The translations under genes and the position numbers were made by a program. From the NCBI GenBank assembly GCA_945876745.1, contig CAMCPL010000009.1, positions 1 to 64,000 on the forward strand: 64,000 nucleotides of DNA. Reading direction: 5' to 3'. The notes beneath the pieces were generated by a model, which ran no database searches, was not told the origin of the DNA, and saw nothing but the letters and a program-made list of their open reading frames with translations. Shown here piece by piece: positions 3,781 through 35,875 of this stretch (positions are counted from its first letter, which is position 1; the number at the start of each line of letters is the position of its first letter). This stretch comes from an uncultured Clostridia bacterium (lineage in GTDB: Bacteria; Bacillota; Clostridia; Oscillospirales; Acutalibacteraceae).

Positions 3781-5529
3781 ATGACAAATAAACAGTTGAA
3801 AAACTTAAAAGATACATTGTGGACGACTGCCGATCAGCTGCGTGCCAATTCCGGCTTGAAGTCCACCGAATATGCCGAGCCTATTCTCGGCCTGATTTTC
3901 TTGCGATTTGCAGATGTAAAATATAGCAAGTTTGAACCTGCAATCAAGGCGGAGTTTGATTCTATCAAGGGAACCCGTATAGAGCGCCCGATTCACGAAA
4001 TTGCGATTGAAAAATGTGGATTTTATCTGCCTGAAGAAGCCAGATATGATTGGCTGCTGAATCTGCCCGAAAGCGAAGACCTTGCCAAAAAGATTAAGGA
4101 AGCCATGGAAGCGGTGGAGAAATATACTGCCGAATTGGAAGATACCCTTCCGAAAGATATTTATTATAGCGTTAACAGCGAAGATGATCCGCTCGTATTG
4201 GCTAAGCTCTTAAAGAACTTTAAGGATATTCCTGCTGATGTGGAGCTTGACATCTTCGGTGAGATTTATGAATACTTCCTGTCCGAATTTGCACTGGCTG
4301 AAGGCCAGGGCGGCGGTGAATTCTTCACCCCTGCATCCGTTGTCCGTTATATGGTTGAAGTTCTTGCACCTACTGAGGGTAAGATTCTTGACCCTGCCTG
4401 TGGCAGCGGTGGTATGTTCGTTCAGACCGCTCATTATATCGAAAAGCACAAGGCACAGGGTAAACAGATGAACTTGCGTGCTTATGGCGTGGAAAAGACC
4501 GGTGCGACTGTTCGACTGGCGAAGATGAACCTTGTCCTGAACAATGTTCGTGGCACCATTACCCACGCAAACTCCTATTACCGTGATCCATACGACAGCT
4601 TCGGTAATTTCGACTATGTTATGGCAAATCCCCCTTTTAATGTAGATGGCGTAGAACTGGATCAGGTAAAAGAGCAGCCCCGCTTCAACACATACGGTGT
4701 ACCTCAGAACAAAACCAAGAATAAGAAGAAAGATGCCAAGGAAACCGTTCCTAACGGCAACTATCTTTGGATCAATCAGTTTGCAACTGCGCTGAATGAT
4801 ACCGGTCGTGCTGCTCTGGTTATGGCAAACTCTGCGTCTGATGCCGGCAACAGCGAAAAGGACATCCGTGTAAAACTGATTGAAAGCGGCATTATCAGCC
4901 AGATGGTCACGCTGCCATCTAATATGTTTACTTCGGTAACGCTGCCTGCTACCTTGTGGTTCTTCGACAAGGCGAAGGTAAAGAAAGATGAAATCCTGTT
5001 TATCGATGCCAGAAATATCTTTACCCAGATTGACCGTGCTCATCGTAAATTTTCCGATGAGCAGATTCGAAACCTCGGTATCATCACCAGACTGTACGAA
5101 GGTAAAACGGAGGACTTTGAAGCTCTGTTGGCTGATTACCGCACGAAATTAGATGAGGCTCCGGAAGTCTCTGATGATGAAGATATTATGCCTAAGAGCT
5201 ACTGGCAGTCCAATATTGACTGGCTGACAGAACGATTCCCAGAAGGAAAATACAGAGATATTGTCGGTCTGTGTAAGGTAGCAACAATCGGCAAGATTTA
5301 TGATGACAAAGGAAAGCTCATCGGCTACGAAGATGACAGCATTGGCGATCAGGACTTTTCTTTGAATCCGGGCCGCTATGTCGGTGTTGTGATCGAGGAT
5401 GACGGCTTAACCCAGGATGAGTTCAAGCAGAGAATGATGGCGTATTACACGGCTCTTTCCAAGCTGAACGAAGAAGCACATGGCTTGGAGAATAAAGTTA
5501 TGGATAATATTCAGAAGTTGATGGGGTAG
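3781..5529 (+). CDS. hsdM: Type I restriction-modification system, methylation subunit HsdM
   Basis: 582 residues. The N-terminal HsdM_N helical domain (about 1-150) is followed by an N6-adenine methyltransferase domain with the AdoMet-binding motif LDPACGSGG at 203-211 and the catalytic motif NPPF at 283-286. HsdM forms M2S with HsdS for host methylation and R2M2S for restriction. The length is normal for the family. SD GGAG precedes ATG 3781. It is the first gene of hsdM-hsdS-ATPase-hsdR, and hsdS starts 4 bases after its stop. Confidence 0.96.
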   Translation: MTNKQLKNLKDTLWTTADQLRANSGLKSTEYAEPILGLIFLRFADVKYSKFEPAIKAEFDSIKGTRIERPIHEIAIEKCGFYLPEEARYDWLLNLPESEDLAKKIKEAMEAVEKYTAELEDTLPKDIYYSVNSEDDPLVLAKLLKNFKDIPADVELDIFGEIYEYFLSEFALAEGQGGGEFFTPASVVRYMVEVLAPTEGKILDPACGSGGMFVQTAHYIEKHKAQGKQMNLRAYGVEKTGATVRLAKMNLVLNNVRGTITHANSYYRDPYDSFGNFDYVMANPPFNVDGVELDQVKEQPRFNTYGVPQNKTKNKKKDAKETVPNGNYLWINQFATALNDTGRAALVMANSASDAGNSEKDIRVKLIESGIISQMVTLPSNMFTSVTLPATLWFFDKAKVKKDEILFIDARNIFTQIDRAHRKFSDEQIRNLGIITRLYEGKTEDFEALLADYRTKLDEAPEVSDDEDIMPKSYWQSNIDWLTERFPEGKYRDIVGLCKVATIGKIYDDKGKLIGYEDDSIGDQDFSLNPGRYVGVVIEDDGLTQDEFKQRMMAYYTALSKLNEEAHGLENKVMDNIQKLMG

Positions 5530-5533
5530 CAAT

Positions 5534-6661
5534 ATGGAATTTACATACTGTAAACTTATAGATGTACTGAGTGATATACATAGTGGTGGCACCCCCTCTA
5601 CCGAAGAATCGTCGTATTGGGGTGGGAATATTAAATGGCTTTCCTCTGGCGAAACAAGTCAAAGGTTTATTAGTGACACAGTTGACAAAATAACAGAAGA
5701 AGGCGTTAAAAATTCATCCACTAAACTGGCTAAAAAGAATAATATCGTTATGGCATGTGCGGGGCAGGGTAAGACGAGAGGTCAAACATCATACTTGCTT
5801 GATGATATGTATATTAACCAGTCTGTAATTGCCTTAGCAACTAAAACTTCTGTATTACCATTATATTTGTTTTATGACTTGTCATCTCGATATGAAGAAT
5901 TGCGTGGTGGGTCGGATGCGAGTAGCACAAGAGGCAGTATAACAACTACAGCATTAAAAAATATGCCTTTCAAATACCCTGACTTATCAATACAGCAGTA
6001 CATTGTGGACATCCTTTTTGGATATGACTCTTTGATTGAAGCGAATAACCGTAGAATTGAGTTGTTGGAACAGACAGCACAGGAACTGTACAAGGAATGG
6101 TTTGTCCGCTTTCGCTTCCCTGGGCATGAAAATACCAAGTTCGAAAATGGTCTGCCAGAGGGATGGAAATGCTGTAGACTGGGAAAAATTATGTCATTTG
6201 GTGCAGGAAAAACTCGTCCCGAATCTGGCGAAACATATCCTGTTTATGGCGGTAATGGAATTTTAGATTATTGTAATTACTACAATAATGAAAATGCAAT
6301 TGTTATTGGGCGTGTGGGTGCATATTGCGGAACGGTTTATTACGAACCTGACAAATGTTGGATATCTGATAATGCGTTGTTTGCAGAAAGCAAGAATAAT
6401 GCACATTTTTATAATTATTACTTGCTTAAAAATATGAATCTCAATACTCGCCAAATAGGAACTGGACAACCACTGATAACGCAGAGTTTATTGAATAAAA
6501 TCAAAATCTTACTTGCTCCAGACTGGCTTATTTTGAAGTACGATAGAATAGCATTTGACTTGCTAAAGAAACAGAATACATTAAGAAAGCAGAATATAAA
6601 TCTTGCGGAGCAGCGTGATATGTTGTTACCTCGCCTGATGAGCGGTAAACTGGAGGTGTAA
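5534..6661 (+). CDS. hsdS: Type I restriction-modification system, specificity subunit HsdS
   Basis: 375 residues with two target-recognition domains. TRD1 (about 1-150) contains the common early motif SGGTPST and ends in a conserved coiled spacer with IELLEQTAQELYKEWFVRF near 175-195; TRD2 (about 205-345) is followed by a second spacer ending LLPRLMSGKLEV, typical of HsdS C-termini. The two halves set a bipartite DNA target; the sequence cannot be read from the protein. It starts 4 bases after hsdM and is coupled to the next gene, whose SD (GGAGGT) lies inside the last codons of hsdS. TRD2 is more AT-rich than hsdM, as expected of exchangeable specificity domains. Confidence 0.95.
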   Translation: MEFTYCKLIDVLSDIHSGGTPSTEESSYWGGNIKWLSSGETSQRFISDTVDKITEEGVKNSSTKLAKKNNIVMACAGQGKTRGQTSYLLDDMYINQSVIALATKTSVLPLYLFYDLSSRYEELRGGSDASSTRGSITTTALKNMPFKYPDLSIQQYIVDILFGYDSLIEANNRRIELLEQTAQELYKEWFVRFRFPGHENTKFENGLPEGWKCCRLGKIMSFGAGKTRPESGETYPVYGGNGILDYCNYYNNENAIVIGRVGAYCGTVYYEPDKCWISDNALFAESKNNAHFYNYYLLKNMNLNTRQIGTGQPLITQSLLNKIKILLAPDWLILKYDRIAFDLLKKQNTLRKQNINLAEQRDMLLPRLMSGKLEV

Positions 6662-6663
6662 AA

Positions 6664-8466
6664 GTGATCAAAAAAGTAGAATTAACAAGATTTAAGAAAT
6701 ATAAATCTCAGAAATTTATGCTAAGACCAAATGGCTTAACACTCCTTGTTGGTGGAAACAACTCTGGTAAATCAACCTTGATTCATGCACTTTCTGTTTG
6801 GGAATTTTGTAAAATGATTCTGCTCCATGAAAAAGGTCGTGAAATATTCAATCAAGATGAGTGGAAAAAAGGTGAAGGATTTGGAATGAGTTCTGAAGAA
6901 TTTTTGCCTATTGCAGTACCTTCACTTAACCATTTATGGACAAATCTCAAAACTCAACTTTCTCCAGCTGAAAAAGAAGCTTGGCCCGATGCATATCCTG
7001 GGTATATAATGAGAATAAAATGCACTTGGGATTATAAAGATCAAATTGATAGAATGCTTGAAATAGGTCTTTCAGTGGTTAATGATCGTTTGTTCATTCG
7101 TGTTACTGATTCTAACTTGTGCAGTCAAGACCATTTACTTACTGTTGTATATCTCCCGACATTTGCAGGTGTTTTGCCCAAAGAGAATAAAGCAACTATT
7201 GCAGAGAGGCGTGCGTTTTTGGGACGTGGTATGGCGGGTTCCGTAATTCGCAATATGATATACGATCTCTATTTGGAAGATAAAAAAATGCGTGACACAT
7301 TGTTAGCAGGCAAAAAACGATTAAGTAATTCCGATAAACAAACCTTAAATGAAACGAGCCCATTACAAAAACTGCAAAACAACTTACGCTCGACATTTTC
7401 CTCACAGCTGGAAATTGAACCCTTTAGTGAAGATTTTCATACTGTGCTGAGAGTCTATGAAAGAAAACTGATCCAAGACGATGGAGAATTGACTGTATTA
7501 CCTAAGAGCAAATATACGCCTCGTGATATTATCACACAAGGAAGTGGATATTTACAATGGCTCAGTATTTTTAGCATTCTGTATAGTTCAAATATTGATA
7601 TTCTGTTGTTGGATGAGCCCGACGCTCATTTACATGCAAGCCTACAGAGTGAGTTGCTAAATCAACTGAGACAAGCAGTTGAGAATGATCAAGAGAAACA
7701 GATTTTGGTTTCAACACACTCTGTTGAAATGATAAAGCAAGCTCCGCTGGAAATTATCTTTTCCATGGATACTCGAAAATATCTATCCGAAGAAACATTA
7801 CGTGTCGCAACTCTTGCAGGCATTGGTAGTGAATATTTCCCGAAAATAGACTTATTAAAGAGATACAAGCGACTGATTTTCGTTGAAAACGAAAGCGATA
7901 AGAAAATTTTGTCCATTCTTGGTAATATATGTGGTATTACTTTGCCTGATGAAATTGTATATTGGGCAAATACTGACGATCATGCAACAAGAAGGCGAAT
8001 TTTCGATAATTTGAAGGCTATCATCCCAAATCTTAAGTGTGTAAGTTTAAGAGATCGTGATATGGATAATCCCGATGTGGTAGGTGATGGACTAAAATAC
8101 AAAGCCATAACACTACCGGCGGACAGTCCTATTCTACTTTTGCAATGGCGACGTAAAAATATTGAGTCCTACCTACTATGCCCCAGGGCTATTGCCGAAG
8201 CTGCCGAAAAGTCTGTTGAAGAAGTTAAGCAACATATTCAACAAAAATTTGCGTTAGCAATAGATGATGATGGATATGCAGAAGCCACTCCACCTGAGGC
8301 GATAATTACTTGCGATGGTAAAAAAGTTTTTACCAAGGAAACTAATGGCTTAGAAGTCGCATTTGGATGTAACAAATATGATGTGGCTAAAAAGATGACT
8401 TCCGCAGAAGTTCCGGAGGACATTAAAGTGTTTTTAACCCAAGTAAAAACATTATTCAGTGTTTAG
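6664..8466 (+). CDS. OLD-like ATPase with C-terminal TOPRIM nuclease domain, inside the type I R-M operon
   Basis: 600 residues from GTG 6664, two bases after the hsdS stop. An ABC-type ATPase domain shows Walker A GGNNSGKST at about 30-38, a signature-like segment near 290, Walker B ILLLDEPDAHLH near 313-324 and a switch His in STHS. The C-terminal part carries TOPRIM features: Glu in FVENESDKK near 405 and Asp-x-Asp in RDRDMD near 462. This is the OLD family plan, shared by Gabija GajA and other anti-phage nucleases. Extra ATPase genes between hsdS and hsdR are known as R-linked genes (rloA in Campylobacter). I infer a defence role, perhaps as a second line behind restriction. It is more AT-rich than hsdM or hsdR. 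Confidence 0.85.
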   Translation: MIKKVELTRFKKYKSQKFMLRPNGLTLLVGGNNSGKSTLIHALSVWEFCKMILLHEKGREIFNQDEWKKGEGFGMSSEEFLPIAVPSLNHLWTNLKTQLSPAEKEAWPDAYPGYIMRIKCTWDYKDQIDRMLEIGLSVVNDRLFIRVTDSNLCSQDHLLTVVYLPTFAGVLPKENKATIAERRAFLGRGMAGSVIRNMIYDLYLEDKKMRDTLLAGKKRLSNSDKQTLNETSPLQKLQNNLRSTFSSQLEIEPFSEDFHTVLRVYERKLIQDDGELTVLPKSKYTPRDIITQGSGYLQWLSIFSILYSSNIDILLLDEPDAHLHASLQSELLNQLRQAVENDQEKQILVSTHSVEMIKQAPLEIIFSMDTRKYLSEETLRVATLAGIGSEYFPKIDLLKRYKRLIFVENESDKKILSILGNICGITLPDEIVYWANTDDHATRRRIFDNLKAIIPNLKCVSLRDRDMDNPDVVGDGLKYKAITLPADSPILLLQWRRKNIESYLLCPRAIAEAAEKSVEEVKQHIQQKFALAIDDDGYAEATPPEAIITCDGKKVFTKETNGLEVAFGCNKYDVAKKMTSAEVPEDIKVFLTQVKTLFSV

Positions 8467-8529
8467 GATGTTTGTCGTATGTCACATCCATAAAGAAAAA
8501 GATGATATACGTGAAAGATAGGTGATTCT

Positions 8530-11500
8530 ATGCCGAAAATCATAACAGAAGATATGATCGAGCAAGCAGCTATCAAGGCTTTGCATGAGAGGCATAACTA
8601 TATTGTTCTGAACTGTATGACAGAAGAACCGGACACACTTCCTGACGAAACCGGACGCAAGGATAAGAAGCAGGTTGTTCTGCCGGATGTGATGTTTGAG
8701 AGCCTTTGCAGAATCAATCCGGATATTCCGACGGAAACGGTGCGCGTTGCGGTGGACGAGTTGTGTCGTACTCCGGTTTCTGGAGACTTAATGCTGACCA
8801 ATTACCAAAACTATCAGAAGATCCGCAACGGCATCACTGTGGAATACAACAAGAACGGCAAGAAGACCTCCAACACACTACGTCTGCTGGCCTATAACGA
8901 TGCTTTGAGCAATACATTTACAATTGCTTCTCAGATGTGGATCAAGGGCGAAACACATTGGCGCAGACCTGATTTGATTATTTTCATCAATGGATTCCCG
9001 ATGGTTTTCATTGAACTAAAAAACAGCAATATTCCGGTAAAGAACGCCTATGATATCAACCTGAAGAACTATTTGAAAGACATTCCATATCTGTTCAACT
9101 ACAACCAGATTTGTGTTCTGTCTAATGGTATGGAAACTCGCCTGGGCAGCTTTGCCGCAGGTTATGAGTTATTCTTTGAATGGCTGAAGGTGGAGAACGA
9201 AAAAGAAAACCCAGACAGAAAAGCCATCCGAGAAAATTGCACCAGCTTGGAGTATTTTATTGCCGGTCTTTGTGAACCGAGGAATCTGTTGGATTACATA
9301 GAGAACTTCATTCTTTACGACCGCCGCAGGACAAAGATTATTGCAAAGAACCATCAGTTCTTTGGTGTAAACAACGCCTATGATGCTTTCCTGCGCCGTG
9401 AGGAATTGAAAGGTAAACTGGGTGTGTTCTGGCATACACAGGGGAGCGGTAAGAGTTATTCCATGGTAATGCTCGCTCGTAAGATCAAGCATAAATGTCC
9501 TGGCAATTTTACATTCCTTATCGTTACTGACCGTGAAGATCTGGATACGCAGATTTATAAAAACTTCCTGCGTACAGAGTTTATTACCGATAAAGATAAG
9601 GTGCAGCCTGCGAACAGCAAGCAGTTGCGTGAGGAATTAAAAGCCAACAAGTCAATCCTGTTTACGCTGATTCATAAGTTTAGATATGATAAGGGAAAGA
9701 AATATCCTGTTCTGTCTGAACGTGATGACATCATCGTTATCGTTGATGAAGCTCACCGCACACAGTACAAGGATTTGGCAGAGAATATGCGCACTGGTTT
9801 ACCGAATGCACAGTTCATGGCATTTACAGGTACACCGTTACTTGGCGCAAAACGACTGACCAATGCGTGGTTCGGTGATTATGTCAGCGAATACAATTTT
9901 GCAGAATCCATCAAAGATAATGCTACCGTACCTCTGTACTATGTGAAGCGTGTACCGGAGGTAGAGTTTCAGAACGATTTCCTTGATTCTGATTTTGCAG
10001 AAATTCTTGAGGAAGAAAATCTAACCGATGCAGAGCAGCGTCGATTGGAAAATCACTATGCAAAGGAACTGGAAGTCATCAAGCGTGATGACCGTCTGGA
10101 TGCCATTGCTCAGCATATTGTTTACCATTTCCCTCGTCGTGGTTTCCGAGGAAAGGGCATGGTTATTTCCGTAGACAAGTTTACTGCCGTGAAGATGTAC
10201 GATAAAGTAAGCTACTACTGGAAAGAAGAAATTAAAAAGTTAAATGCGCAGATAAGCCAAACCAATGATGCGGCTGAAAAGCTCCGTCTGAAAGATATGG
10301 TGGACTATATGCGCAAAGTGGAAATGGCTGTTGTCATCAGCGAAGATGCCGATGAAGAAGCTAAATTTGCAGCGGAAGGATTGTCGATAAAACCGCATCG
10401 TGAACGCATGAATAGGGTTGATGAAAATGGTTTTGATATTGAGGATAACTTCAAAGACCCAAACAATCCGTTGCAGTTGGTTTTCGTCTGTGCTATGTGG
10501 CTGACGGGATTTGATGCGCCGTCTGTTTCCACCTTGTATTTGGACAAGCCTATGAAGGGTCATACTCTGATGCAGACTATTGCCCGTGCAAACCGTGTCT
10601 ATAACGGCAAGGAATGTGGTCTGATTATCGACTATTTGGATGTGTTCAAATATTTGAAACGAGCATTGGCGGATTATGCGTCTGATGATGGCGGCTTAAT
10701 GCCGGTGAAAGATGTGGAAAAGCTGCTGGGACAGTTGCACGAAGCAATTGATCTTACTAAAGCGTTCTGTCTGAGTCATAATGTGGATCTCAGCAAAGTG
10801 GTTGAAGATGGAGATACCTTCAAGAATCTATCGTTCTTCGAGGATTACGCCAATATCATTGTGGGCAACGATGATGTGAAGAATGAGTTTTCTGTGATGG
10901 CTAATACCGTTGATGGTCTGTATGAGTCGCTTAGACCTGATATTTTCAAAATGGATTTTGAGCCAGCTTACAAAGATGCAATTCTATATCTGAAAGGTGT
11001 CATTGACGGAAAAATTCGCCCCGAAAAGATTGAAGCTGCGCAGGCCAGAATCAATGAACTGTTGGATCAGAGTGTTATCACCGCTGCAGATGCAAGAAAA
11101 TACACCATCACAGAAGCAGGTAAAGAGCTTGACTTATCCAAACTGGATATTGATGAACTCAGATCTCAATTCAAAAAGCTGAAGAATAAAAATCTTGAAA
11201 TTGCGAATTTGCGTAAGCATATTGAGGAGAAGCTTCAAAAGATGCTTCGTCGCAATACAACCCGCACAAAGTTTGCCGAGCGTTTCAGAAACATCATTGA
11301 TGAGTACAATGCCGGTGGCTCTCAAAATGATGATTTTTATGAGAAACTTCTGAAGTTAATGGAAGAACTCCAGGCGGAGGAAGAACGTCATATTAAGGAA
11401 GAATTGTCGGAAGCTGAATTGGAACTGTTTGACCTTCTTAGAAAAGAACATCTTACCGCTGATGAAGAAAAGCGTGTAAAACTGGCAGCGAAAGAACTGT

Positions 11501-11712
11501 ATAATACGCTTACCGAAAAGCGAAATGAATTGTTTATTGTTGGATGGCAAAACGATCCTCAGCCGAAGGAACGAGTAAGGGGTGAGATTGTCTGTATCTT
11601 GAATAAGTTCTTGCCGGAAAGCTACGACAGGGAAATTTTCTTGAAAAAGAGTACACCTGTATTTGATTATATCGTTGACCAAGCGATGACTGGGTACAAT
11701 TGGGTTGCATAA
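8530..11712 (+). CDS. hsdR: Type I restriction-modification system, endonuclease and translocase subunit HsdR
   Basis: 1060 residues, normal for the family. The N-terminal HSDR_N nuclease domain shows RRPDLII then VFIELKN at about 145-165 (PD-(D/E)xK). Two RecA-like motor domains follow: Walker A TQGSGKS at about 304-310, DEAH-box VDEAHRTQ near 404, and later motifs FTGTPLL and QTIARANRVY. The helical C-terminal part docks on HsdM. The enzyme moves DNA using ATP and cuts away from unmethylated sites. A 63-base gap separates it from the ATPase gene, which may hold its own start signals. A strong hairpin terminator follows at 11725. Confidence 0.96.
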   Translation: MPKIITEDMIEQAAIKALHERHNYIVLNCMTEEPDTLPDETGRKDKKQVVLPDVMFESLCRINPDIPTETVRVAVDELCRTPVSGDLMLTNYQNYQKIRNGITVEYNKNGKKTSNTLRLLAYNDALSNTFTIASQMWIKGETHWRRPDLIIFINGFPMVFIELKNSNIPVKNAYDINLKNYLKDIPYLFNYNQICVLSNGMETRLGSFAAGYELFFEWLKVENEKENPDRKAIRENCTSLEYFIAGLCEPRNLLDYIENFILYDRRRTKIIAKNHQFFGVNNAYDAFLRREELKGKLGVFWHTQGSGKSYSMVMLARKIKHKCPGNFTFLIVTDREDLDTQIYKNFLRTEFITDKDKVQPANSKQLREELKANKSILFTLIHKFRYDKGKKYPVLSERDDIIVIVDEAHRTQYKDLAENMRTGLPNAQFMAFTGTPLLGAKRLTNAWFGDYVSEYNFAESIKDNATVPLYYVKRVPEVEFQNDFLDSDFAEILEEENLTDAEQRRLENHYAKELEVIKRDDRLDAIAQHIVYHFPRRGFRGKGMVISVDKFTAVKMYDKVSYYWKEEIKKLNAQISQTNDAAEKLRLKDMVDYMRKVEMAVVISEDADEEAKFAAEGLSIKPHRERMNRVDENGFDIEDNFKDPNNPLQLVFVCAMWLTGFDAPSVSTLYLDKPMKGHTLMQTIARANRVYNGKECGLIIDYLDVFKYLKRALADYASDDGGLMPVKDVEKLLGQLHEAIDLTKAFCLSHNVDLSKVVEDGDTFKNLSFFEDYANIIVGNDDVKNEFSVMANTVDGLYESLRPDIFKMDFEPAYKDAILYLKGVIDGKIRPEKIEAAQARINELLDQSVITAADARKYTITEAGKELDLSKLDIDELRSQFKKLKNKNLEIANLRKHIEEKLQKMLRRNTTRTKFAERFRNIIDEYNAGGSQNDDFYEKLLKLMEELQAEEERHIKEELSEAELELFDLLRKEHLTADEEKRVKLAAKELYNTLTEKRNELFIVGWQNDPQPKERVRGEIVCILNKFLPESYDREIFLKKSTPVFDYIVDQAMTGYNWVA

Positions 11713-13193: not shown

Positions 13194-13766
13194 TTATTTC
13201 TTCTGTTTCATCTTCCTTTGAAAATCGTTCAGCGTTTGGATATGCCACAGGCTTTTGCGGGTTATGGAACGAAAGGTCAGCGAACAGAAAAAGTCGATTA
13301 GAAAGATTTTCGGTATGTAAAAGAGTTGTCCTTTGCGGAACGATTTAAGTTGCCCACGGTTGCACCAATTATTTACGGTGGTTTTGGCGTAGCCGGTCAA
13401 AGCGACAACATCCTGCACGGTAACGACATCCTTATACTTGCCGAGCAGTTTGGCGTAATAGTTGTGCATTTGCCTAAGTACATCCTCGGGCAGTTCTTTG
13501 GAGAGTTTCGCTACATAGTGACCGCCGTACCATCCTCTCGGTGCGGAATAGAGCTCGGGATAAACGGCTCGCTCCTCAAGATACGCCTTGACATCCTCTT
13601 TTTTGATTTTATAGCACCGGGTTTTCTTGCCTGTCCACTCGCATGGCACCTTGCCGCTTTTGAGCAAATGCAACGCCGTGGATTTGCTGATATGGCAAAG
13701 GCGATAAAATTGATCCTTGTTCATCACATTGGGCACGCTGTCCCAGTCAATCGGTAGATTTTTCAT
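13194..13766 (-). CDS. Protein with two helix-turn-helix motifs, excisionase-like
   Basis: 190 residues. An N-terminal HTH_17-type motif (MNKDQFYRLCHISKSTALHL, wing with TRCYKIKKEDVKAYLEE) is followed by a second HTH near residues 115-155 (VTVQDVVALTGYAKTTVNNW then KGQLFYIPKIFLIDFF). Two-HTH proteins of this size accompany integrases in clostridial elements and are taken to be regulators or directionality factors. SD GAGGAG precedes the start. It lies at the right end of the 11.9-13.8 kb mobile debris; no integrase is next to it, and the region 13767-14195 behind it holds no supported gene. Confidence 0.7.
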   Translation of the reverse strand: MKNLPIDWDSVPNVMNKDQFYRLCHISKSTALHLLKSGKVPCEWTGKKTRCYKIKKEDVKAYLEERAVYPELYSAPRGWYGGHYVAKLSKELPEDVLRQMHNYYAKLLGKYKDVVTVQDVVALTGYAKTTVNNWCNRGQLKSFRKGQLFYIPKIFLIDFFCSLTFRSITRKSLWHIQTLNDFQRKMKQKK

Positions 13767-14195: not shown

Positions 14196-14284
14196 GGAGA
14201 CGTATCGAAGTGGTCATAACGGACATGACTCGAAATCATGATGCCCCTTGAGGGACGTGGGTTCGAATCCCACCGTCTCCGCCA
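14196..14284 (+). tRNA. tRNA-Ser (anticodon CGA)
   Basis: Acceptor strands GGAGACG (14196-14202) and CGTCTCC (14274-14280), discriminator G and encoded CCA (14282-14284). Anticodon stem CATGA/TCATG around loop CTCGAAA with anticodon CGA at 14231-14233; T-arm GTGGG-TTCGAAT-CCCAC; a long variable arm as in type II tRNAs. All stems pair. It decodes UCG serine codons. The 13 bases 14226-14238 recur at 35780-35792, so this gene is the probable integration target of the element to its right. Confidence 0.95.
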
Positions 14285-14321
14285 AAGCCCCAAAGGCGTA
14301 AGTCTTTGGGGCTTACTTATT
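14285..14321 (+). terminator. Terminator behind tRNA-Ser
   Basis: Perfect inverted repeat AAGCCCCAAAG / CTTTGGGGCTT directly after the tRNA CCA, followed by ACTTATT. Confidence 0.75.
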
Positions 14322-15553: not shown

Positions 15554-17347
15554 ATGAGGATAACAAGAATTGAAATTGAAAAATACAAATCAATAAAGAA
15601 ACCAATCGAAATTAACTTCTATGACGATTTGCCGACCGTGTTGATTGGCAAAAACGGAAGCGGGAAAACCAATATTTTAGAGGCGCTTAATGCAATAACT
15701 GAAGCAAATAGCAATTATTTCGGGTTGAACAAAGAAATACCACTTAGCTACAAAGTGCTCATTTGTCTTTCCAAAGATGATATTACTCGACTTTTCCCCA
15801 GCAAAAATATTGATGAGAACAAATGCCGATTTATCGCATGCTCCGGGGAGAACTGCAAAATTGACAGAATTGAATCGGAATATTTAGTCCCGCTTTTAAA
15901 TTCTGAAATTTGCGAAATTCATGACCTTGCGGGCGAGTTAAAGAAAGCTCTCGATGCATACATAAAACAACTCAACAAGATTGCGTATAACGAAAGTACC
16001 GATGTTCCCGTCCGTGGTTTTCAGATCACAGATTTTCGCAATTCAACGACCAATTTTGATATATTGAAATTTCAAGTTGGATTTGTTACTGAACAGGCTG
16101 AAAAACTGGCAGATTCACTGATGCATAACTTTGAAAGCAAAGAAAACTCCTTCAGATTTGGTTATATATATGATTATTTCAGTTTAAACGACACGAAAAA
16201 ATTGTCTTTTCAACTCCGCTATTCAGAACCGGATTTAGCTCCGTTTGAAGCAAGGTTTATCACCGTAAACAAAACGGCGATAAAGCGTGAAATCACAAGA
16301 ATCAATAAGGCAACAAAAGCGTCCTGCGACAGAATCACATCATTGCTCAATGAAATTGATGAACGCAGCAAGCGTCTGAAAGAAGCATTAACCGGCGAAC
16401 AACCGATATCAGACGATAACGGCTCATTTTATAAGTTCATTCGTGAGGTACAAAGGTGTGTCGGCAGCAAATGCTCATTTTTGCGAAACGAAAGCAGCGA
16501 TGTCATATTCAGAAGCAATGAGAGAGAGCAGGAATACTATCGCGATAACAAATCATTTATGGTTTTGCAGACCTATCTCAACAAGGTTTACAATGGAACT
16601 GATAAAGAAGACTTGCTGAAACAAATCCAAACCGAAAATAATTTTTCGCTGACCGATGCAGCTCTGCGCGAATTTGAAGAATATCTTAATTCCGACAAAC
16701 CCGAATTTGAAGCAGGTATGTATGAACATATTTCAGTTGAACGCTCCGAAGGAAAAATTCCGACAATAGTTTTGCATGAAAAATCCGGCGAAACGGTTGC
16801 CCTGAATTCCACAAGCGCCGGCAGACGGTGGTATTTCACCTACTATTTTATGAAAAATACGCTTCATCCCGGAGATCTGTTTATTATTGACGAGCCTGCT
16901 GCTATGCTACATCCCATTGCTCAAAAAGAAGTAATGCGGGAACTGCTTGAACTTGAAAATAAAGAGATTAAAGTCATTTATTCCACTCATAGCCCCTATC
17001 TTGTCCCAAGCGATTGGAAAAGTGTACACTTTGTCACCATGGAAGATAACGGAACAGCAGTAACACAAGAAAACCATAATGACCTTTTGAAACAAGTTAC
17101 CGGTGGCGATATTTTTAATCTACAAAAGCTTTTAGAAAAATACAAAAAATGCGGTTCCTACACAGCAGCTAATAATTGCTATAAAGCTTTGATGAAAAAA
17201 TATGGCTCTATGGAGGATGCATCCTACAAGGTGCCTTTTACCTATAGCACTCTTGAATCATGGAAAAAGAAGAAGCGGGGTACTTCATTTGAAAATGTAA
17301 TATCAATAGCAGGGGCGATTGGCATCTCGCCGGAAAAACTGCTTTAA
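15554..17347 (+). CDS. OLD/PtuA-like AAA ATPase, possible defence protein
   Basis: 597 residues. ABC/SMC-like ATPase with Walker A GKNGSGKTN at about 34-42, a long helical insertion (about 200-400), signature-like region near 415, Walker B LFIIDEPAAMLH near 442-453 and switch STHSPYL near 477-483. No TOPRIM motifs are visible after it; the last 90 residues are helical and end in a segment (SFENVISIAGAIGISPEKL) like the recognition part of an XRE-type HTH. ATPases of this build are paired with an HNH nuclease in Septu (PtuA-PtuB), and an HNH gene follows here after 87 bases. The pairing is inference: a terminator lies between the two genes. Confidence 0.75.
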   Translation: MRITRIEIEKYKSIKKPIEINFYDDLPTVLIGKNGSGKTNILEALNAITEANSNYFGLNKEIPLSYKVLICLSKDDITRLFPSKNIDENKCRFIACSGENCKIDRIESEYLVPLLNSEICEIHDLAGELKKALDAYIKQLNKIAYNESTDVPVRGFQITDFRNSTTNFDILKFQVGFVTEQAEKLADSLMHNFESKENSFRFGYIYDYFSLNDTKKLSFQLRYSEPDLAPFEARFITVNKTAIKREITRINKATKASCDRITSLLNEIDERSKRLKEALTGEQPISDDNGSFYKFIREVQRCVGSKCSFLRNESSDVIFRSNEREQEYYRDNKSFMVLQTYLNKVYNGTDKEDLLKQIQTENNFSLTDAALREFEEYLNSDKPEFEAGMYEHISVERSEGKIPTIVLHEKSGETVALNSTSAGRRWYFTYYFMKNTLHPGDLFIIDEPAAMLHPIAQKEVMRELLELENKEIKVIYSTHSPYLVPSDWKSVHFVTMEDNGTAVTQENHNDLLKQVTGGDIFNLQKLLEKYKKCGSYTAANNCYKALMKKYGSMEDASYKVPFTYSTLESWKKKKRGTSFENVISIAGAIGISPEKLL

Positions 17348-17357
17348 TTTGCGGGGG

Positions 17358-17390
17358 GGGTACAACTGTACCCTCTGATTTTTTTATTTT
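17358..17390 (+). terminator. Terminator between ATPase and HNH genes
   Basis: Palindrome GGGTACAACTGTACCC (17358-17373) followed by a T-rich tail, preceded by a run of eight G. The half-site GGGTACA recurs at 17405-17411, just after a TATAAT box (17397-17402) for the HNH gene, so the hairpin sequence could also act as an operator. Confidence 0.6.
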
Positions 17391-17434
17391 TTGAATTATA
17401 ATATGGGTACATCTTAGAAAAGGAGGTACTCAAA

Positions 17435-17746
17435 ATGTCAAAGTATAAAACCATATATGTATGGAACCGTGTTTTCGGAGAAAAGCAGGAGGTGTACGAT
17501 TACGCTGGAAGGCTAATGAAAAAATTAGCCTGCGGAAATCCGAATAGTTCTTATCACCCGACACTCGATCACATCAGACCGCTTTCAAACGGCGGGTGCG
17601 ATGTCCTCGAAAATATCATAATTTGCCATCGTGATACCAACAAGGAAAAAGCAGATCACTTTCCGCACTGGAAGGCAAACGGCGCATCTTTCCACGCCCG
17701 CAGGGTAAAAGGTTCCCGTGTGGCATACAAAATTATCGAAGATTAA
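17435..17746 (+). CDS. Small HNH endonuclease
   Basis: 103 residues. The HNH motif is clear: LDHIRPLSNGGCDVLENI at about 46-63 and CHRDTNKEK near 66-74, giving the D-H, N and N/H ligands of a beta-beta-alpha metal nuclease. The protein is little more than this domain. SD AAGGAGG and ATG 17435 are unambiguous. The stop codon TAA overlaps the SD of the next gene (acidic protein, 12 bases on), so the two are coupled. It could be the PtuB-like partner of the upstream ATPase, or a nuclease whose activity is held by the acidic neighbour. Confidence 0.85.
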   Translation: MSKYKTIYVWNRVFGEKQEVYDYAGRLMKKLACGNPNSSYHPTLDHIRPLSNGGCDVLENIIICHRDTNKEKADHFPHWKANGASFHARRVKGSRVAYKIIED

Positions 17747-17758
17747 GGAGGAACATCC

Positions 17759-17941
17759 ATGAGCAAAAATTTCTTTGATTACGACGACGGCGACTATGCA
17801 CATTCCATTTCCGACAATATGGCAATTGATTCAGACGGCAACATGATGATGAGAATGGGCGACAACATGGCTATGGACATGGACACCGGCGATCTTCACT
17901 TTATTTCATCTTGGCCTGACGATGAAGACGACGACGATTAA
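17759..17941 (+). CDS. Very acidic, methionine-rich small protein with internal repeat
   Basis: 60 residues with 17 Asp, 1 Glu, 9 Met and only 2 basic residues. Two copies of a DNMAxDxDxG-like unit follow each other (near residues 19-27 and 35-44), and the C-terminus is a DDEDDDD tail. No membrane segment. It sits between the HNH nuclease and the zinc-ribbon gene with gaps of 12 and 15 bases and a strong SD (AAGGAGG). Strongly acidic partners of nucleases can act as DNA-mimic immunity proteins (known for other nucleases), but I do not recognise this family and the role is inference from charge and position. Confidence 0.75.
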   Translation: MSKNFFDYDDGDYAHSISDNMAIDSDGNMMMRMGDNMAMDMDTGDLHFISSWPDDEDDDD

Positions 17942-17956
17942 AAGGAGCGATTGTAT

Positions 17957-18712
17957 ATGGCTTTAATACATTGCCCGAATTGCGGAAAACTTATTAGCGA
18001 CATGGCAACACTATGCCCAAACTGTAACAGCCAAAACGGTGATCCATCTGCAAACGACGCAGTAACCTGTTCTGAATGCGGAAATAAGTACAGCAAAGAA
18101 CAAAATTTCTGTCCGGCTTGCGGTTGTCCCAATAACTCAAATCTCCCAAAAAAGAAGAAGCATAAAGGTATTGCCATTGCAGCAATTATTCTAACTATCG
18201 TTTTAGCAATCGGATTGTTCGGTGCATTTGTGAGCAATAAAAGCAGAGCAACGGTTTATTATGACAATTTAGAAACCGTCACCTACAAAATGCTTGACGG
18301 TGCAGCAAAAGCAGAAACCGCAGGAAATCTTATCAAGAGTGTATGGTACAATGCAATTTATGAGGAAAGGGATTCAGAAACAGATAAATACACTTTAAAA
18401 AACGGCAAATTCGTTGATGATTTTAATGACGCCCTAAGTAATTTGTTTTCCGACGAAGAGTATCAGAAAAACATCTTAGCAATCCAAAATAACCAAGATG
18501 AAGTAATATCTCTGATGAAGCAACTCAATAATCCTCCCAGAGAATACGAGGAAGCATATTCGGTTTTGAAAACATATTATGATAACTATTTGTCAATGAC
18601 TAAGATGGTTATTAATCCAGCAGGGAGTTTGCAATCATTTTCAGACGAATTTAATAGTGCAGACACTGAGACCGTAAACTCTTACGAAAAAATGAAACTG
18701 TATCTAAACTAA
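17957..18712 (+). CDS. Double zinc-ribbon membrane protein
   Basis: About 251 residues from ATG 17957 (SD AAGGAG; a TTG at 17951 is less likely). Two zinc ribbons, CPNCGKLISDMATLCPNC and CSECGNKYSKEQNFCPACGC, occupy residues 5-55, followed by a KKKKHKG stretch, one membrane helix (AIAAIILTIVLAIGLFGAFV, about 70-90) and an outside helical domain of about 160 residues. This cytoplasmic-ribbon plus TM plus external-domain plan is common in Firmicutes and is usually of unknown role. It is the third gene of the HNH-acidic-ribbon run. The group II intron begins a few bases after its stop. Confidence 0.75.
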   Translation: MALIHCPNCGKLISDMATLCPNCNSQNGDPSANDAVTCSECGNKYSKEQNFCPACGCPNNSNLPKKKKHKGIAIAAIILTIVLAIGLFGAFVSNKSRATVYYDNLETVTYKMLDGAAKAETAGNLIKSVWYNAIYEERDSETDKYTLKNGKFVDDFNDALSNLFSDEEYQKNILAIQNNQDEVISLMKQLNNPPREYEEAYSVLKTYYDNYLSMTKMVINPAGSLQSFSDEFNSADTETVNSYEKMKLYLN

Positions 18713-18717
18713 CAAAT

Positions 18718-20628
18718 CGAGTAGGAGGCTACCCATTAGTTGAGTAGCCGACCTCTCACACCACCGTGCGTACCGTTCGGTACACGGCGGTTCAATCATA
18801 TTGAGTGCATAGACTTGTACGCTTCGGATATGTCATAATATCCCCTGCGTGCAAGTCTTTCATTTGTTATGGTATGCTGTAATATACCGCTTCCTGCAAT
18901 AGCCCAATAGCCTTTCCGAGTGTTTCCGTTTCGGCAAGCCTGCAATTCGGGCATACCAAATTTCTTTAGGTTTTCCACCCTTGTTTTTGGCTTCTTCCAT
19001 TGCTTCCAGATATACATTCGTATTCTTCTTCGCAACCACTCGTTCCATTGCTTCATAAGTGTTTCCATTTCCGCTATTCCGTAATAACCAAGCCATCCTC
19101 GCATAAATACCCTTATATTGTTTAACACGGTATCAAGCTTTCTGCCTTGACTACGGGAAGTTAGTTTTCGCAGTTTATCCTTGGCTTTCTTCTTCGACTT
19201 TGCGTGAACTCGGATATATGCACCCTTTCTGTTCCTTCCCATCGCAAAGCCGAGAAACCGAAATTTCGGATTGAATACACACTTACCGCTCGGCTCTTTT
19301 CCGTGTTTACCTTGAGCTTTAATTTCTTCTCAAGATATGCCGTACTTGTTCCGAGCAATCTTTCCGCCGCACGCATACTCTTTGCTAAAAGAAGTATATC
19401 GTCTGCATATCGGATTACCTTTACTCCTCTGCCCTCAAACTCTTTATCGAATTTATCGAGATAGATGTTGGCAAGTAACGGTGACAGATTTCCGCCCTGC
19501 GGTGAACCCTCTTTCGTTTTCATTACTATGCCGTTTTCCATTACTCCGCTTTTAAGATACTTCTTGATTAAATCAATCAGTCTCTTATCCTTGATGTCCT
19601 CACGGAGCATATTCATAAGCAGTTCGTGGTTCAGCGTATCGAAATATTTGGATAAATCAAGGCATACTGCATATTTGTACCCCTCGTCCGCATATTCCTT
19701 TACTTTGAGTATTGCGTCCTTTGCGCTTTTGTGCGGTCTGTAGCCGTAGCTTCCGTCCGAAAACTTCGGCTCATAGATTGGTATTAGCACCTGTGCTATT
19801 GCTTGTTGGATAACGCGGTCTATGACTGTCGGTATTCCGAGCTTTCTCGCTTCCCCGTTGTCCTTGGGAATCTCTACTCTCCTGACAGGCGACGGCTTGT
19901 ATTTGCCGTTCCTTATACTTTCGAGCAGTTCATTCCTATGTTCTTTCAACCACGGGAGGGCTTCATCTACGGTCATACAGTCAACTCCGCTTGCTCCCTT
20001 ATTGGCTTTTACCCGCTTGTAGGCTTTATTCAGATTGTCTCTGCTCAGAACCTTTTCAAGCAAGTCTGCACCGTCCTTTCGGTCAACCTCTCGACCTTCG
20101 GTACTGCACGCTTCTGCATACTCTTCGTGTTTCACACTATCCCTTTGCAGGAAGCCGCCGTTTTCGGCGTATTCTGTTTTCATCATACCGACCTCCTTTA
20201 GTTTCTTACTAGGAACTTATGATTGTTCGGTCCTTCCCGAAAAAAAATTTTTTTCCCCCTCGGTACTATGACCTCTGCTGACTTCTTACAGTTCGTTGTT
20301 ACTACGGAAAAAATTTTTTTCCGCCTGCAAGACCTCCTCGGGTAAGCGTAATCACCTTCACCTCATATATCTGCTGCATTTACACCTTGAAATTCGGGCA
20401 GTATTGGACTTCGTTTTGAATAGGAAACTCGTCCGTTTCAAGTATGCCTTATATGCAGTTTCTGTTCGTCAGACCGAGGCTTTGCCCGCAGAGACACTTT
20501 TAAGTCTCCGCATCCGACTTCTTTCAGACTCCGTCTCACGGCGGACGCCCTTGTCTTCGGCTAACAGTTCCTACTGCCAAGTCTGTAGCGGACTTTCACC
20601 GCCAAGTTATTACACGTGCCGAGCACAC
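18718..20628 (-). mobile_element. Group II intron (probably class C) with maturase gene
   Basis: On the - strand the 5' end GTGTGCTCGG begins at 20628, one base or so behind a rho-independent terminator, and the 3' end lies near 18718. Domain V is visible at about 18749-18793 (arms around GTACCGAACGGTAC), and domain VI just after it (GGCTAC/GTAGCC with an ACTAAT stretch for the branch A). The maturase ORF occupies the middle. Insertion directly downstream of a terminator hairpin and a total length of about 1.9 kb are characteristic of group IIC introns. Exact splice sites are estimates, to within a few bases. Confidence 0.8.
18796..20186 (-). pseudogene. ltrA: Group II intron reverse transcriptase/maturase, frameshifted
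   Basis: The first part (20186 to about 19262) holds the RT domain: palm motif CLDLSKYFDTLNH, GSPQGGNLSPLLANIYL and the catalytic YADD in VIRYADDILLL. The thumb/maturase part (FMRGWLGYYGIAEME, about 18796-19242) continues in another frame. The break lies near 19262, where AATTTCGGTTT would need one more C to keep frame (restoring NFRFLGFAMGRNRKG). The whole would be about 463 residues. Without the thumb and maturase domain the RT alone should not support splicing or mobility, so the intron is inactive unless the shift is a sequencing error or is bypassed. Confidence 0.85.
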
Positions 20629-29225: not shown

Positions 29226-31736
29226 TTATTCGCTCTGACCTTTTTGAATTTCTACATCCAATTCACTATTAAATTTCAAGAAGGTTTTATTTTTTATGCT
29301 TTCAAAAAAAGCATGATAATTTTTAGGCGTCAACATAGTAAATTTATAAACATTTTCGCCAAGATACTTATTAATCAACTTAACATGCTCAATAGCTGCA
29401 TTGTGCTTACCTATATTCTCCGCATGTGGCGATTGTATTTCTTCATCGCCTTTTATTTCAACAATTATTATATTATCATTGATTTTTAGAATAAAATCCG
29501 GATTAAATTTGTCATACCTTATTGCTTCTCCATGCCTAGGATTTTTCTTCCATGAGTAATCTATGGAATAAAAATTTTTGGATGGAGACTTTATCCAAGC
29601 AGTAATCATATCAGAATTATCTATTAATCCATCAATAAATTTCTTTTCTGGATCATGATTCGAAAAACATAACGAGGTTATGGTTTTAAATTTATTTTTA
29701 TTTGACACCTTTTTCTGTTTATATCCATTACTCGTGTCTATGATTTCATCAAAAAACTCTGTTTCTTCGTCTGACAAATATCCTTTTGTATCATCAGTCC
29801 AAAATAATGTATTACTGTTTTTTAATAAGCTGGCACTTGTTGATTCACTGCCCATATCTCTCGTAGATACAACAAAGTATTTGTCCGGATTTGTACTATA
29901 AGTTACATAGGTTGAGCCTTGGCGCCAAGCAGTAGACATAGCAGAAATAAATTTGTTAGACAATGAATCTGTTATTACAGTATTGCCACTTTCTTCTAAC
30001 GAGTGCTTAATTATTTCCTCTAATTTTTCAATCGAATACTTCTCTTGATATTGTTCTGCCAACCCCAAACCTTCGTCGTCCGGAACATCTCTAAATCTAT
30101 CCCACATTTTTAAAGCCATATCTTCAATGCTAATAGTCTTATGTTTTAGTTTTGTGTTCCATGTTTTGCTTTCATTTTTTAGATTAGAAAGCTCTATTTC
30201 AACTGTTTCTTCCGGTGATACGGTTGGTAATGTTATATAACCTTTATCAAACAAATTATAAAGACCAACCTTTTCCTTCTTTTTAGGGGAAGCTATAGGA
30301 TCTTTTTTATATTCACAATTGCAAATTTCAAAATGAAATTCCGAATTAGGTTCAATTTTCGTTGAAATACGGCGTTCTATTTCCAATATTTCATCAACAA
30401 GTTTTTTAACTGCAAGTGACCATTTTTCATGATTGAAAACTATTACCTCAGGCTTGCCAAACATCATATTCCAGTTTGATGGTATACGAAGTCCTCTACC
30501 CAAAACTTGAGCAATTAACAACTTTGAATTAAACGCTCTTTCTTCATCAGGAATTATTTGAAATACGCGCTTAACATCCCAACCCTCTGTAAGCATAGAA
30601 ACAGAAAAAATCCATTCAACTTTAGATGTGCTTGAATCTACATCTTTCAATCTTGCCCTGTCACCAGCTACATTCGGTTTGGAATGAACAACTAAAACTC
30701 TTTCGTTAACTTCATCATCAGATAATTTAAAGTTATCCTTAAGGTAGTTTTTAAATCTTCTCGCAAGTGCGTCACACGAGGAGGTTTTTTCGGTTACAAC
30801 AATAGAAATAGGCAAGATGTTTTTAGAACTTAATTTTTCCTTAATTTCATTATGTGAATTGATAATAACTTGCCATTGGTCTTCTTTTTTAGTTGGCATA
30901 TTTTCTTTTATAATATATGAAACATTTTTAACCCAACCATCATCTATTGCTTGCTTTAAAGAATATCGATAGATTACATCCACAAAATAATCATTATCTT
31001 TATAGTAACAAGTACCCGATACTCCGATATTATATTTAGGTTTAATAGTTTCTATAAAGTTTTTCCATTGATTTTGCTCTGTGTAATAAATATGATGCGA
31101 TTCGTCACTCAAAACGAGTGTTTTCTCACCCTTTCCGATTAAACTATCCGTTATTGAACTGCGAGAATTTTTATAAATAGCATCTCTATTTTCTACACAG
31201 ATACATCCTTTGACAACACTTTCATCGCTGGCAATAATTCTAGGAGGAGGTGTGGATAAGCAACTATTTAATTTGCTATCAGCAGCGAAAGTTTCAAATT
31301 TGTTTTTTAACTCACGCTCTATAGTGATACTTGGTACAAGAACAAGAACTTGATCAACAAATCCTGCACTTAACATTATTGTGGCGAGTCCATATAATAC
31401 CCAACTTTTTCCTGTGCCTGTTGCTAAATCCAAGTTTGCAGTATAAGTATTTTTAAAAAATAACTTATTAATGAAATTTTTCTCTGTTGAATATTTGTCT
31501 TTAAGATGATAATTATTAGAATAATTTTCTTTTGCTAAATCTTCAATATTCCTATATTGATTACCGCACATAAATCGTAATGCTGCATAAATAGCTTCTT
31601 CTTGATATTTTCGGCCATCTGTTAAAGTTAAAACAAATTTATCGTATTTACTTTCATCCCACTTACTTAAATCAACATTATTCCCAACATTTAATACTAA
31701 ATCTTGTTCTTTGATTTTAATTTTATTTTGTTCCAT
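29226..31736 (-). CDS. res: Type III restriction-modification system, helicase-endonuclease subunit Res
   Basis: 836 residues from ATG 31736, 14 bases inside mod (a TTG at 31739 is also possible). Superfamily 2 helicase with Walker A LATGTGKSW at about 105-113, DESH in place of DEAD/DEAH at about 211-214, and helicase motif VI near QVLGRGLRIP. A C-terminal PD-(D/E)xK nuclease shows FNPDFIL then VEIKGDEE near 760-767. Type III enzymes with Mod cut near two inversely oriented sites after ATP-dependent one-dimensional search. Length is slightly below the usual 900-1000. Very AT-rich like mod, so acquired as a unit. Confidence 0.9.
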   Translation of the reverse strand: MEQNKIKIKEQDLVLNVGNNVDLSKWDESKYDKFVLTLTDGRKYQEEAIYAALRFMCGNQYRNIEDLAKENYSNNYHLKDKYSTEKNFINKLFFKNTYTANLDLATGTGKSWVLYGLATIMLSAGFVDQVLVLVPSITIERELKNKFETFAADSKLNSCLSTPPPRIIASDESVVKGCICVENRDAIYKNSRSSITDSLIGKGEKTLVLSDESHHIYYTEQNQWKNFIETIKPKYNIGVSGTCYYKDNDYFVDVIYRYSLKQAIDDGWVKNVSYIIKENMPTKKEDQWQVIINSHNEIKEKLSSKNILPISIVVTEKTSSCDALARRFKNYLKDNFKLSDDEVNERVLVVHSKPNVAGDRARLKDVDSSTSKVEWIFSVSMLTEGWDVKRVFQIIPDEERAFNSKLLIAQVLGRGLRIPSNWNMMFGKPEVIVFNHEKWSLAVKKLVDEILEIERRISTKIEPNSEFHFEICNCEYKKDPIASPKKKEKVGLYNLFDKGYITLPTVSPEETVEIELSNLKNESKTWNTKLKHKTISIEDMALKMWDRFRDVPDDEGLGLAEQYQEKYSIEKLEEIIKHSLEESGNTVITDSLSNKFISAMSTAWRQGSTYVTYSTNPDKYFVVSTRDMGSESTSASLLKNSNTLFWTDDTKGYLSDEETEFFDEIIDTSNGYKQKKVSNKNKFKTITSLCFSNHDPEKKFIDGLIDNSDMITAWIKSPSKNFYSIDYSWKKNPRHGEAIRYDKFNPDFILKINDNIIIVEIKGDEEIQSPHAENIGKHNAAIEHVKLINKYLGENVYKFTMLTPKNYHAFFESIKNKTFLKFNSELDVEIQKGQSE

Positions 31737-35779: not shown

Positions 35780-35838
35780 TGACTCGAAATCAGTTAGGGA
35801 GCAATCCCCCGCGAGTTCGAATCTCGCCGTCTCCGCCA
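35780..35838 (+). pseudogene. Displaced 3' part of a tRNA-Ser gene (attR-like)
   Basis: Anticodon loop CTCGAAA, a variable arm with GGGA/TCCCC, T-arm GCGAG-TTCGAAT-CTCGC, acceptor 3' strand CGTCTCC and GCCA are all present, but no D-arm or acceptor 5' strand precedes them. The acceptor strand equals that of the tRNA-Ser at 14196. The first 13 bases equal 14226-14238. This is what remains at the far junction when an element enters a tRNA gene at the anticodon loop. Confidence 0.8.
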
Positions 35839-35875
35839 AAAAAGCCTACAAACGAAATCGTTTGCAGGCTTTTTC
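35838..35875. terminator. Bidirectional terminator
   Basis: AAGCCTACAAACGA / TCGTTTGCAGGCTT (one mismatch) flanked by A and T runs, between the tRNA piece and the end of the symporter gene. Confidence 0.85.

Follow-up and report, generated by a model that had tools for sequence, protein, structure and literature searches.

Septu (PtuA-PtuB) and the effectors of the retrons Ec78/Ec83 place an ABC-type ATPase beside a small HNH protein. In the accessible parts of two reports, the known PtuAB systems are an ATPase and HNH pair of which both members are needed, and a C-terminal helix-turn-helix (HTH) domain is not part of Septu as described there (PMC11555353, PMC13096335). OLD and PARIS (AriA-AriB) share the ATPase domain family; the OLD ATPase is fused to a TOPRIM domain, and the PARIS ATPase AriA has the TOPRIM protein AriB as its partner. 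The controller (C) proteins of restriction-modification (R-M) systems are, as far as the accessible text on them goes, small HTH proteins with operator sites before the nuclease gene. CapH+CapP, CapW/BrxR and CapK+CapS are presented, in the accessible part of one report, as sensor-coupled DNA-binding controllers of adjacent exchangeable immune operons (PMC13373217).

We compared with these systems a locus in a 64-kb stretch of DNA, the whole of which we call the window (Table 1). The original prediction had singled out three closely packed genes encoding an HNH nuclease, a very acidic Met-rich repeat protein and a zinc-ribbon membrane protein, behind an OLD/PtuA-like ATPase. These genes are all present, with gaps of 12 bp between the HNH and acidic genes and 15 bp between the acidic and zinc-ribbon genes, and with strong ribosome sites of the GGAG type; the zinc-ribbon gene starts at ATG 17957, with TTG 17951 as a possible alternative. 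The HNH protein scores above the Pfam cut-offs of HNH_4 (E = 3.9e-5) and HNH (E = 1.3e-4). The zinc-ribbon protein does so for Zn_ribbon_3 (E = 3.4e-10), DZR (E = 9.6e-8) and Zn_Ribbon_1, and its membrane segment is a reading by eye. Among the 60 residues of the acidic protein are 18 D/E, 2 K/R and 9 Met, the acidic and basic counts being those predicted, and the protein has no match in Pfam, PHROGs, PADLOC or NCBIfam at E up to 0.1. The ATPase, with a Walker A motif GKNGSGKT and a DEP Walker B, matches Pfam AAA_15 (E = 2.2e-27). Two features had been overlooked: the HTH on the ATPase, and a palindrome with a TATAAT between the ATPase and HNH genes. Since the acidic gene is under purifying selection (median dN/dS ~0.095, from the 21 of 55 sequence pairs with usable dS) and the HNH residues are conserved, the genes in the window are not chance ORFs.

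Table 1. Positions of the cassette features in the window and of the RNA leaders in related loci.
Feature	Position	Strand	Basis and remarks
HNH nuclease-like protein, 103 aa	17435-17746	+	Pfam HNH_4, HNH; proposed effector
Acidic Met-rich repeat protein (family type A), 60 aa	17759-17941	+	Proposed accessory partner
Double zinc-ribbon protein, 251 aa	17957-18712	+	Pfam; one membrane segment by eye; add-on gene
ATPase, AAA_15 / ABC-ATPase kind, 597 aa	15554-17347	+	Pfam; proposed sensor-regulator
Helix-turn-helix region, ATPase C-terminus	17120-17344	+	Profile-profile match to stand-alone HTH of sister loci
Palindrome GGGTACAACTGTACCC	17358-17373		Proposed operator; may also be terminator
TATAAT, promoter-like -10, no good -35	17397-17402	+	Sequence
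Half-site GGGTACA	17405-17411		Downstream of TATAAT
RNA leader, L074	4280-4646		
RNA leader, L075	2-366		
RNA leader, L077	4424-4758		
RNA leader, L083	4417-4758		
RNA leader, L085	1036-1390		
RNA leader, L101	1254-1497		
RNA leader, L102	2021-2284	-	

We consider it an even chance that the locus is a nuclease cassette of a defence island, exchangeable and under the control of a sensor, which resembles Septu in composition and is not a member of it. The three predicted genes would form the 3' part of a four-gene cargo cassette that reads ATPase-HTH, operator/promoter, HNH, acidic protein and zinc-ribbon protein. Comparison with related loci indicates more than a set of chance neighbours, and the unit appears to be the ATPase-HTH, the HNH protein and the acidic protein, with exchangeable parts. 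Among the matches listed for the open-access literature, titles and the first lines of abstracts contained no arrangement that we recognised as this one.

The predicted mobile-element setting is supported by a tyrosine integrase, a relaxase, MobC and a repeat of the 3' end of a tRNA-Ser gene. The tRNA-Ser gene lies at 14196-14284, and its 3' part recurs incompletely near 35780-35840; the repeat spans 26 bp at 92% identity (14261-14286 and 35815-35840) and may bound an integrative element of about 21.6 kb. Besides the mobility genes, this candidate element holds a type III-like R-M pair (29226-33606), and a type I R-M operon that contains its own inserted gene for an AAA_15 ATPase lies at 3781-11712, so that R-M genes flank the cassette on either side as separate gene groups. 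By its gene content, this region of the window is probably a defence island.

Relatives of the HNH protein were found at 28 loci out of 51 pattern matches in a species-level genome scan. The gene is present in 4 of 98 near-relative genomes (the window's own included; one of the four is distant, at 38% identity), in 1 of 398 phylum genomes, which is the window's own, and in 13 of 394 order genomes, where eight matches are strong and full-length and the remaining five score lower, in open frames of 314-346 codons. This rare and patchy distribution fits mobile cargo. Our count set comprises 32 HNH genes (window, L002-L026, L028, L029, L047 and L051-L053, with L027 dropped as cut off); L048-L050 are repeats of L021, L005 and L023, and the window, L002 and L003 are near copies, with HNH proteins 97-98% identical. 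D45, H46 and N69 are conserved in all 32 genes and N60 in 31, positions that we take to be the catalytic ones of HNH enzymes; the genes of L015 and L019 have an in-frame stop. A viral origin of the HNH gene itself found no support in searches of IMG/VR, with no full-length relative (0 matches for the single protein and two short matches for an alignment query), or of plasmid and phage records, where 1 and 12 records matched, all of them over part of the length and at less than 60% identity.

The acidic gene lies 11-13 bp downstream of the HNH gene in all ten members of the window's clade, and the ten rows with a type A partner form one clade (support 99/95) in a tree of the 32 HNH genes, which was built from a short alignment and has mostly weak inner branches (3 of 30 starred). 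This linkage is old, since dS between the acidic gene of the window and those of L004-L007 is 0.77 to 1.85 and is unusable against six others. HNH and acidic genes thus appear to be a stable, co-inherited pair. Downstream of the HNH gene in the 31 judged loci (L012, whose sequence ends too early, is excluded) we found type A in 10, type B, which is short and acidic with YDSGEY repeats, in 3, type C, with NPNN repeats, in 4, and type D alone in 2; L020 carries types C and D together. Twelve of the 31 loci have no recognised small partner, a count made partly by eye, and may hold a partner family that we did not recognise. The HNH proteins of 11 of these 12 retain D45, H46, N60 and N69, L052 having N60D, and the stop in L015 comes later in the frame. 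Types B, C and D matched no Pfam family above cut-off (the best weak match was DUF7167, E = 0.0024, for one D protein), type C had no PDB profile match at E up to 10, and the acidic family had one PDB profile match under E 1, to muskelin (E = 0.0022), which is probably driven by composition.

The HNH and acidic proteins had been likened to a nuclease and a DNA-mimic inhibitor, in which case the HNH protein would be a DNA-cutting toxin neutralised by a partner that mimics DNA. The opposite charges (calculated pI 9.3 vs near 4) and the tight coupling agree with this comparison, and so does the presence of the acidic family behind a second HNH family, H2 (L074, L075, L094), and behind RNase III-like genes (L079, L086, L090). 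Any likeness of the acidic protein to DNA-mimic inhibitors would lie in its 18 acidic residues of 60. An antitoxin of type II would always accompany its toxin, whereas here the 12 partnerless loci include 11 with all four motif residues; moreover, the type C partner of L028 has 0 acidic and 8 basic residues, and the acidic family stands behind zinc-ribbon proteins in 4 of 25 places. We therefore regard a toxin and DNA-mimic antitoxin pair as unlikely.

The third gene of the predicted module fared differently from the first two. It is present in 4 of the 10 clade members (window, L002, L003 and L007; truncated in L003), and zinc-ribbon relatives of the window type adjoin the HNH family only in these four, so that the HNH and acidic genes are linked and not scattered, while zinc-ribbon homologues are largely unlinked to the HNH family. 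Because the zinc-ribbon gene is so rarely beside this family, the three genes were rejected as a unit. Six other zinc-ribbon matches among the 98 relatives showed no HNH match within 1.5 kb (78 nt upstream in the case of L107). In L103 (1956-3770, minus strand), a zinc-ribbon relative of 45% identity immediately follows a 318-aa protein whose HNH domain is related. A group II intron at about 18716-20625 lies directly 3' of the zinc-ribbon gene in the window and is absent in L002. The idea that the window lost a second acidic gene to this intron was rejected because L002, which is free of the intron, likewise has no second acidic gene.

The gene upstream of HNH varies. In 12 of 30 loci (L009 and L052 have too little upstream sequence) it is an ATPase with a C-terminal extension, the copy in L008 being split by a stop or frameshift. 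In 11 of the 30 it is a small stand-alone HTH protein of about 60-73 aa, cut short in L047, with a Pfam HTH_3 match of E = 1.3e-11 for the one tested (L017). The stand-alone HTH sits behind three gene types: DUF4238 genes in L023, L024 and L028 (Pfam E = 1e-18 and 6.4e-18 for L024 and L028), or two kinds of genes for 360-450 aa proteins with an NRNxxIHGDY-like motif at the C-terminus, presumably HEPN-like, for which the three tested gave no Pfam match. In L011, L015 and L018 the HNH gene follows a viperin-like gene (pVip E = 5.1e-68 for L011, the others by resemblance) at a gap of 25 bp with no palindrome of the classes found; L014, L016, L025 and L026 have other or unclear upstream genes. The viperin-like genes of L011, L015 and L018 are themselves preceded by a small ORF that resembles an HTH and by genes that look nucleotidyltransferase-like by eye, the one scanned, in L018, having no informative Pfam match. 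By parsimony on the HNH tree, the upstream labels change 15 times and the downstream labels 9 times, figures that count 'other' and 'none' as states and carry no shuffled control. The ATPase C-terminus and the stand-alone HTH are homologous in a profile-profile comparison (probability 93, E = 3.5e-7), and single ATPase C-termini match Pfam weakly (HTH_3 E = 0.052 for the window member). This homology links the putative sensor to a regulator. The ATPase thus appears to belong to the cassette unit, in a position where ATPase, DUF4238, HEPN-like and viperin genes are exchanged on a constant pair.

The gap before the HNH gene measures 75-100 bp in 19 of 21 cases. The palindrome GGGTACAACTGTACCC matches nowhere else in the window with up to 2 mismatches allowed. 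In exact searches, GGGTACNNNNGTACCC occurred in 12 of 102 loci (7 without duplicates), once each and solely between ATPase and HNH genes, and TGAACCNNNNGGTTCA in 8 of 102 (4 without duplicates), once each and solely in the gap before HNH. By eye, loci with the window-type ATPase have GGGTACANNTGTACCC in this gap, L021 and L022 have GAGTGGACAGCTGTCCACTC instead, the gap palindrome of L020 is GGGTGGTGCGCCACCC, and in most stand-alone HTH loci a separate terminator-like stem is followed by TGAACCANNTGGTTCA or a close variant, the palindrome of L024 being degenerate. In 6 of 21 gaps the palindrome was matched by at most 5% of shuffled sequences, that of L012 lying elsewhere in the gap. The shuffle test alone is unconvincing, and we therefore rely on conserved sequence and position, which are specific to each cassette class and point to a putative operator. 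Because the window palindrome also scores as terminator-like, its operator role is something we infer; the palindromes of L004 and L008 lack a T-run, and the L008 copy is degenerate. No sigma-70 pair passed a consensus scan of the gap between the ATPase and HNH genes.

Taken together with the gene order, these features suggest how the cassette may work. The ATPase would be a sensor fused to a DNA-binding domain. Bound to the palindrome immediately before the HNH promoter, it would either hold the HNH operon low or activate it on a signal, the sequence fitting both directions of control. The trigger would most likely be a product of phage infection or DNA damage, upon which expression of the HNH operon would rise. 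The HNH enzyme would then cut nucleic acid of the invader or the host, in a presumed anti-phage function, and the acidic protein, as a general small partner of the effector slot, would tune or shield the enzyme. If this is right, a dangerous enzyme is checked by joining sensor and DNA-binding regulator in one protein, different sensors are exchanged while nuclease and partner stay constant, and abortive-infection-like wiring becomes testable in a four-gene cassette.

The ATPase could also act by contact with the HNH protein as in Septu, with no transcriptional step. In such a complex a change in ATP or in a phage signal would end the inhibition of HNH by the ATPase, HNH would then cut phage DNA or tRNA, the palindrome would be only a terminator, and the small genes would be passengers. 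The ATPase is indeed of the OLD/PtuA-like kind originally predicted: its profile is nearest to PtuA, OLD and AriA in the PDB, with a retron PtuA-type ATPase at the top (3.7e-8), and the related PADLOC models are AriA (best, 2.6e-28), OLD, AbiLi and PtuA. It adjoins HNH in the 12 loci counted above as the ATPase of the known pair does, and the terminator-like score of the window palindrome would also suit a Septu-like complex. However, searches with the HNH protein gave no PtuB model in PADLOC (E up to 1) and no PtuB chain in the PDB (E up to 5), the ATPase reaches 44.3 bits where the PtuA equivalog cut-off (NCBIfam NF041760) is 500, and 18 of 30 HNH loci have another upstream gene or none of the ATPase kind. 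The cassette further differs from Septu in the HTH at the ATPase C-terminus, the operator-like palindrome and the small partner genes. The likeness is probably one of composition, and a Septu-like complex strikes us as somewhat unlikely.

The proposed sensor-controlled cassette also departs from the other systems named above. The TOPRIM fusion of OLD has no counterpart in the 597-aa ATPase by Pfam, whose C-terminus is HTH-like instead, and the AriB partner of PARIS has none in the three genes behind the ATPase, where the partner is an HNH protein. The HTH and palindrome before the putative nuclease gene may parallel the R-M controllers, but the HTH lies within or behind another gene, and Pfam finds no methyltransferase among the four genes. 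By analogy, the predicted sensor-coupled DNA-binding protein beside an exchangeable operon resembles the Cap controllers, to the extent that the accessible part of PMC13373217 describes them. In these cassettes, however, the predicted DNA-binding domain either forms one protein with an ABC-type ATPase or is encoded separately, after DUF4238 or HEPN-like genes, and Pfam detects no protease, WYL or kinase domain in the ATPase.

The acidic family occurs in 25 places in 24 of 394 order genomes. The preceding gene belongs to the HNH family in 3 places, to H2 in 2, to zinc-ribbon proteins in 4, to type C in 3 and to RNase III-like proteins in 3; a family-less 336-aa protein precedes it once and a 382-aa gene twice, at 112 bp. 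The rest are contig ends (3) or unclear (4), one of each judged from coordinates only. H2 is profile-related to the first HNH family, with Pfam HNH_5 below cut-off. The two RNase III-like proteins scanned match Ribonucleas_3_3 (E = 1.7e-20 and 1.0e-18); besides these genes, every one of the three genomes contains two more matches to RNase III. It is the third RNase III gene that stands directly before the acidic gene (L079 858-2030, minus strand; L086 3835-4992; L090), and a dsRNA-binding domain was seen in the two scanned. Type C follows a DEDDh exonuclease in L096/L105 and, in L098 and L128, a gene that we take from its motif to be nucleotidyltransferase-like; the L098 protein has no Pfam match. 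In L105 (1552-4443), the genes for a 597-aa protein whose start looks XRE-like by eye, the DEDDh exonuclease, type C and type D follow one another as in an operon. The contexts of the acidic family and type C appear to favour nucleic-acid enzymes and are not limited to them, as judged with no random-gene baseline.

Cassettes also appear to replace one another. Positions 13195-13198 of the window, between DUF6809 and HTH_17 genes, are an uninterrupted junction, while the matching flanks hold ATPase-HNH-acidic-zinc-ribbon-acidic genes in L007 and RNA leader-H2-acidic gene in L074; the window's own cassette sits elsewhere, at 15.5-18.7 kb. Over 150 nt, the second and last acidic gene of L007 shows 100% identity to the acidic gene of L074, and the front genes differ entirely. 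Different cassettes thus use one slot and can share an acidic 3' end. Such sharing, and the position of the acidic family behind unrelated genes, would also be expected if the acidic gene were a common 3' tail that provides homology for swapping the front gene and has no direct role with HNH. A mere tail would hardly explain the purifying selection on the acidic protein, or that type A is inherited along with a single HNH clade and types B, C and D are found with HNH genes outside it, and we find this explanation unlikely.

Some sister cassettes have an RNA in the upstream position. A shared non-coding stretch of up to about 330-370 nt was found in 7 loci (Table 1), before H2 in L074, L075 and L102 and before type C in L077, L083, L085 and L101; by BLAST, the alignment is 245 nt long for L101 and 122 nt for L102. 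The leaders of L074, L077, L083 and L085 matched no Rfam family at the gathering score, and for L083 a limit of E 1 yielded a single weak hit, which is unrelated. RNAalifold on the 7 leaders gave 33 pairs, 10 with two-sided change and a covariation term of only -0.18, and the fold z-score is -5.1 for L074 and -1.6 for L083. A covariance model built from the 7 leaders recovered exactly those 7 loci in 310 genomes and had no match in the HNH family loci searched (window, L002, L007, L011, L014, L026 and L028). The leader was accordingly rejected as a part of these HNH family loci and belongs to the sister cassettes.

A broader reading, which we hold tentatively, is a class of exchangeable mobile-element cassettes of gut Firmicutes and phages, each combining an input switch, a nucleic-acid enzyme and one or two tiny repeat proteins (types A-D) as general partners. 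The inputs would be the ATPase-HTH, an HTH behind other sensors, or the ~330-nt RNA leader with a terminator and ribosome-site switch, and the enzymes would be two HNH families, RNase III-like proteins, a DEDDh exonuclease and possibly nucleotidyltransferases. If true, it would give a role to tiny-protein families with no family above cut-off and to a structured RNA with no Rfam match. A terminator hairpin precedes the ribosome site in 12 of 14 leaders, and in 13 of 14 the sequence leading up to the ribosome site has a complementary partner 57-65 or 100-109 nt further upstream, a complementarity with shuffled p <=0.02 in only 4 of the 14.

The covariance model matched before H2 or type C in 11 of 19 viral contigs, which had been fetched by the type C protein alone and include some near copies; three weaker matches were on the opposite strand. 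Leaders were found in the viral contigs L120, L122, L126, L127, L129-L133 and L141-L144. A degenerate pattern of the RNA picked out 6 stretches in viral contigs: 2 of them come from contigs that carry H2 and type C, and the remaining 4 had no match to the RNA model. By resemblance, type C is followed by a ParB-like gene in L127 and L128 and preceded by a terminase-like one in L126 and L127, which is a cargo position of these three viral contigs. In a Dorea phage (PV036443; L095, 3986-4399), type C and a type A relative lie in tandem between tail genes.
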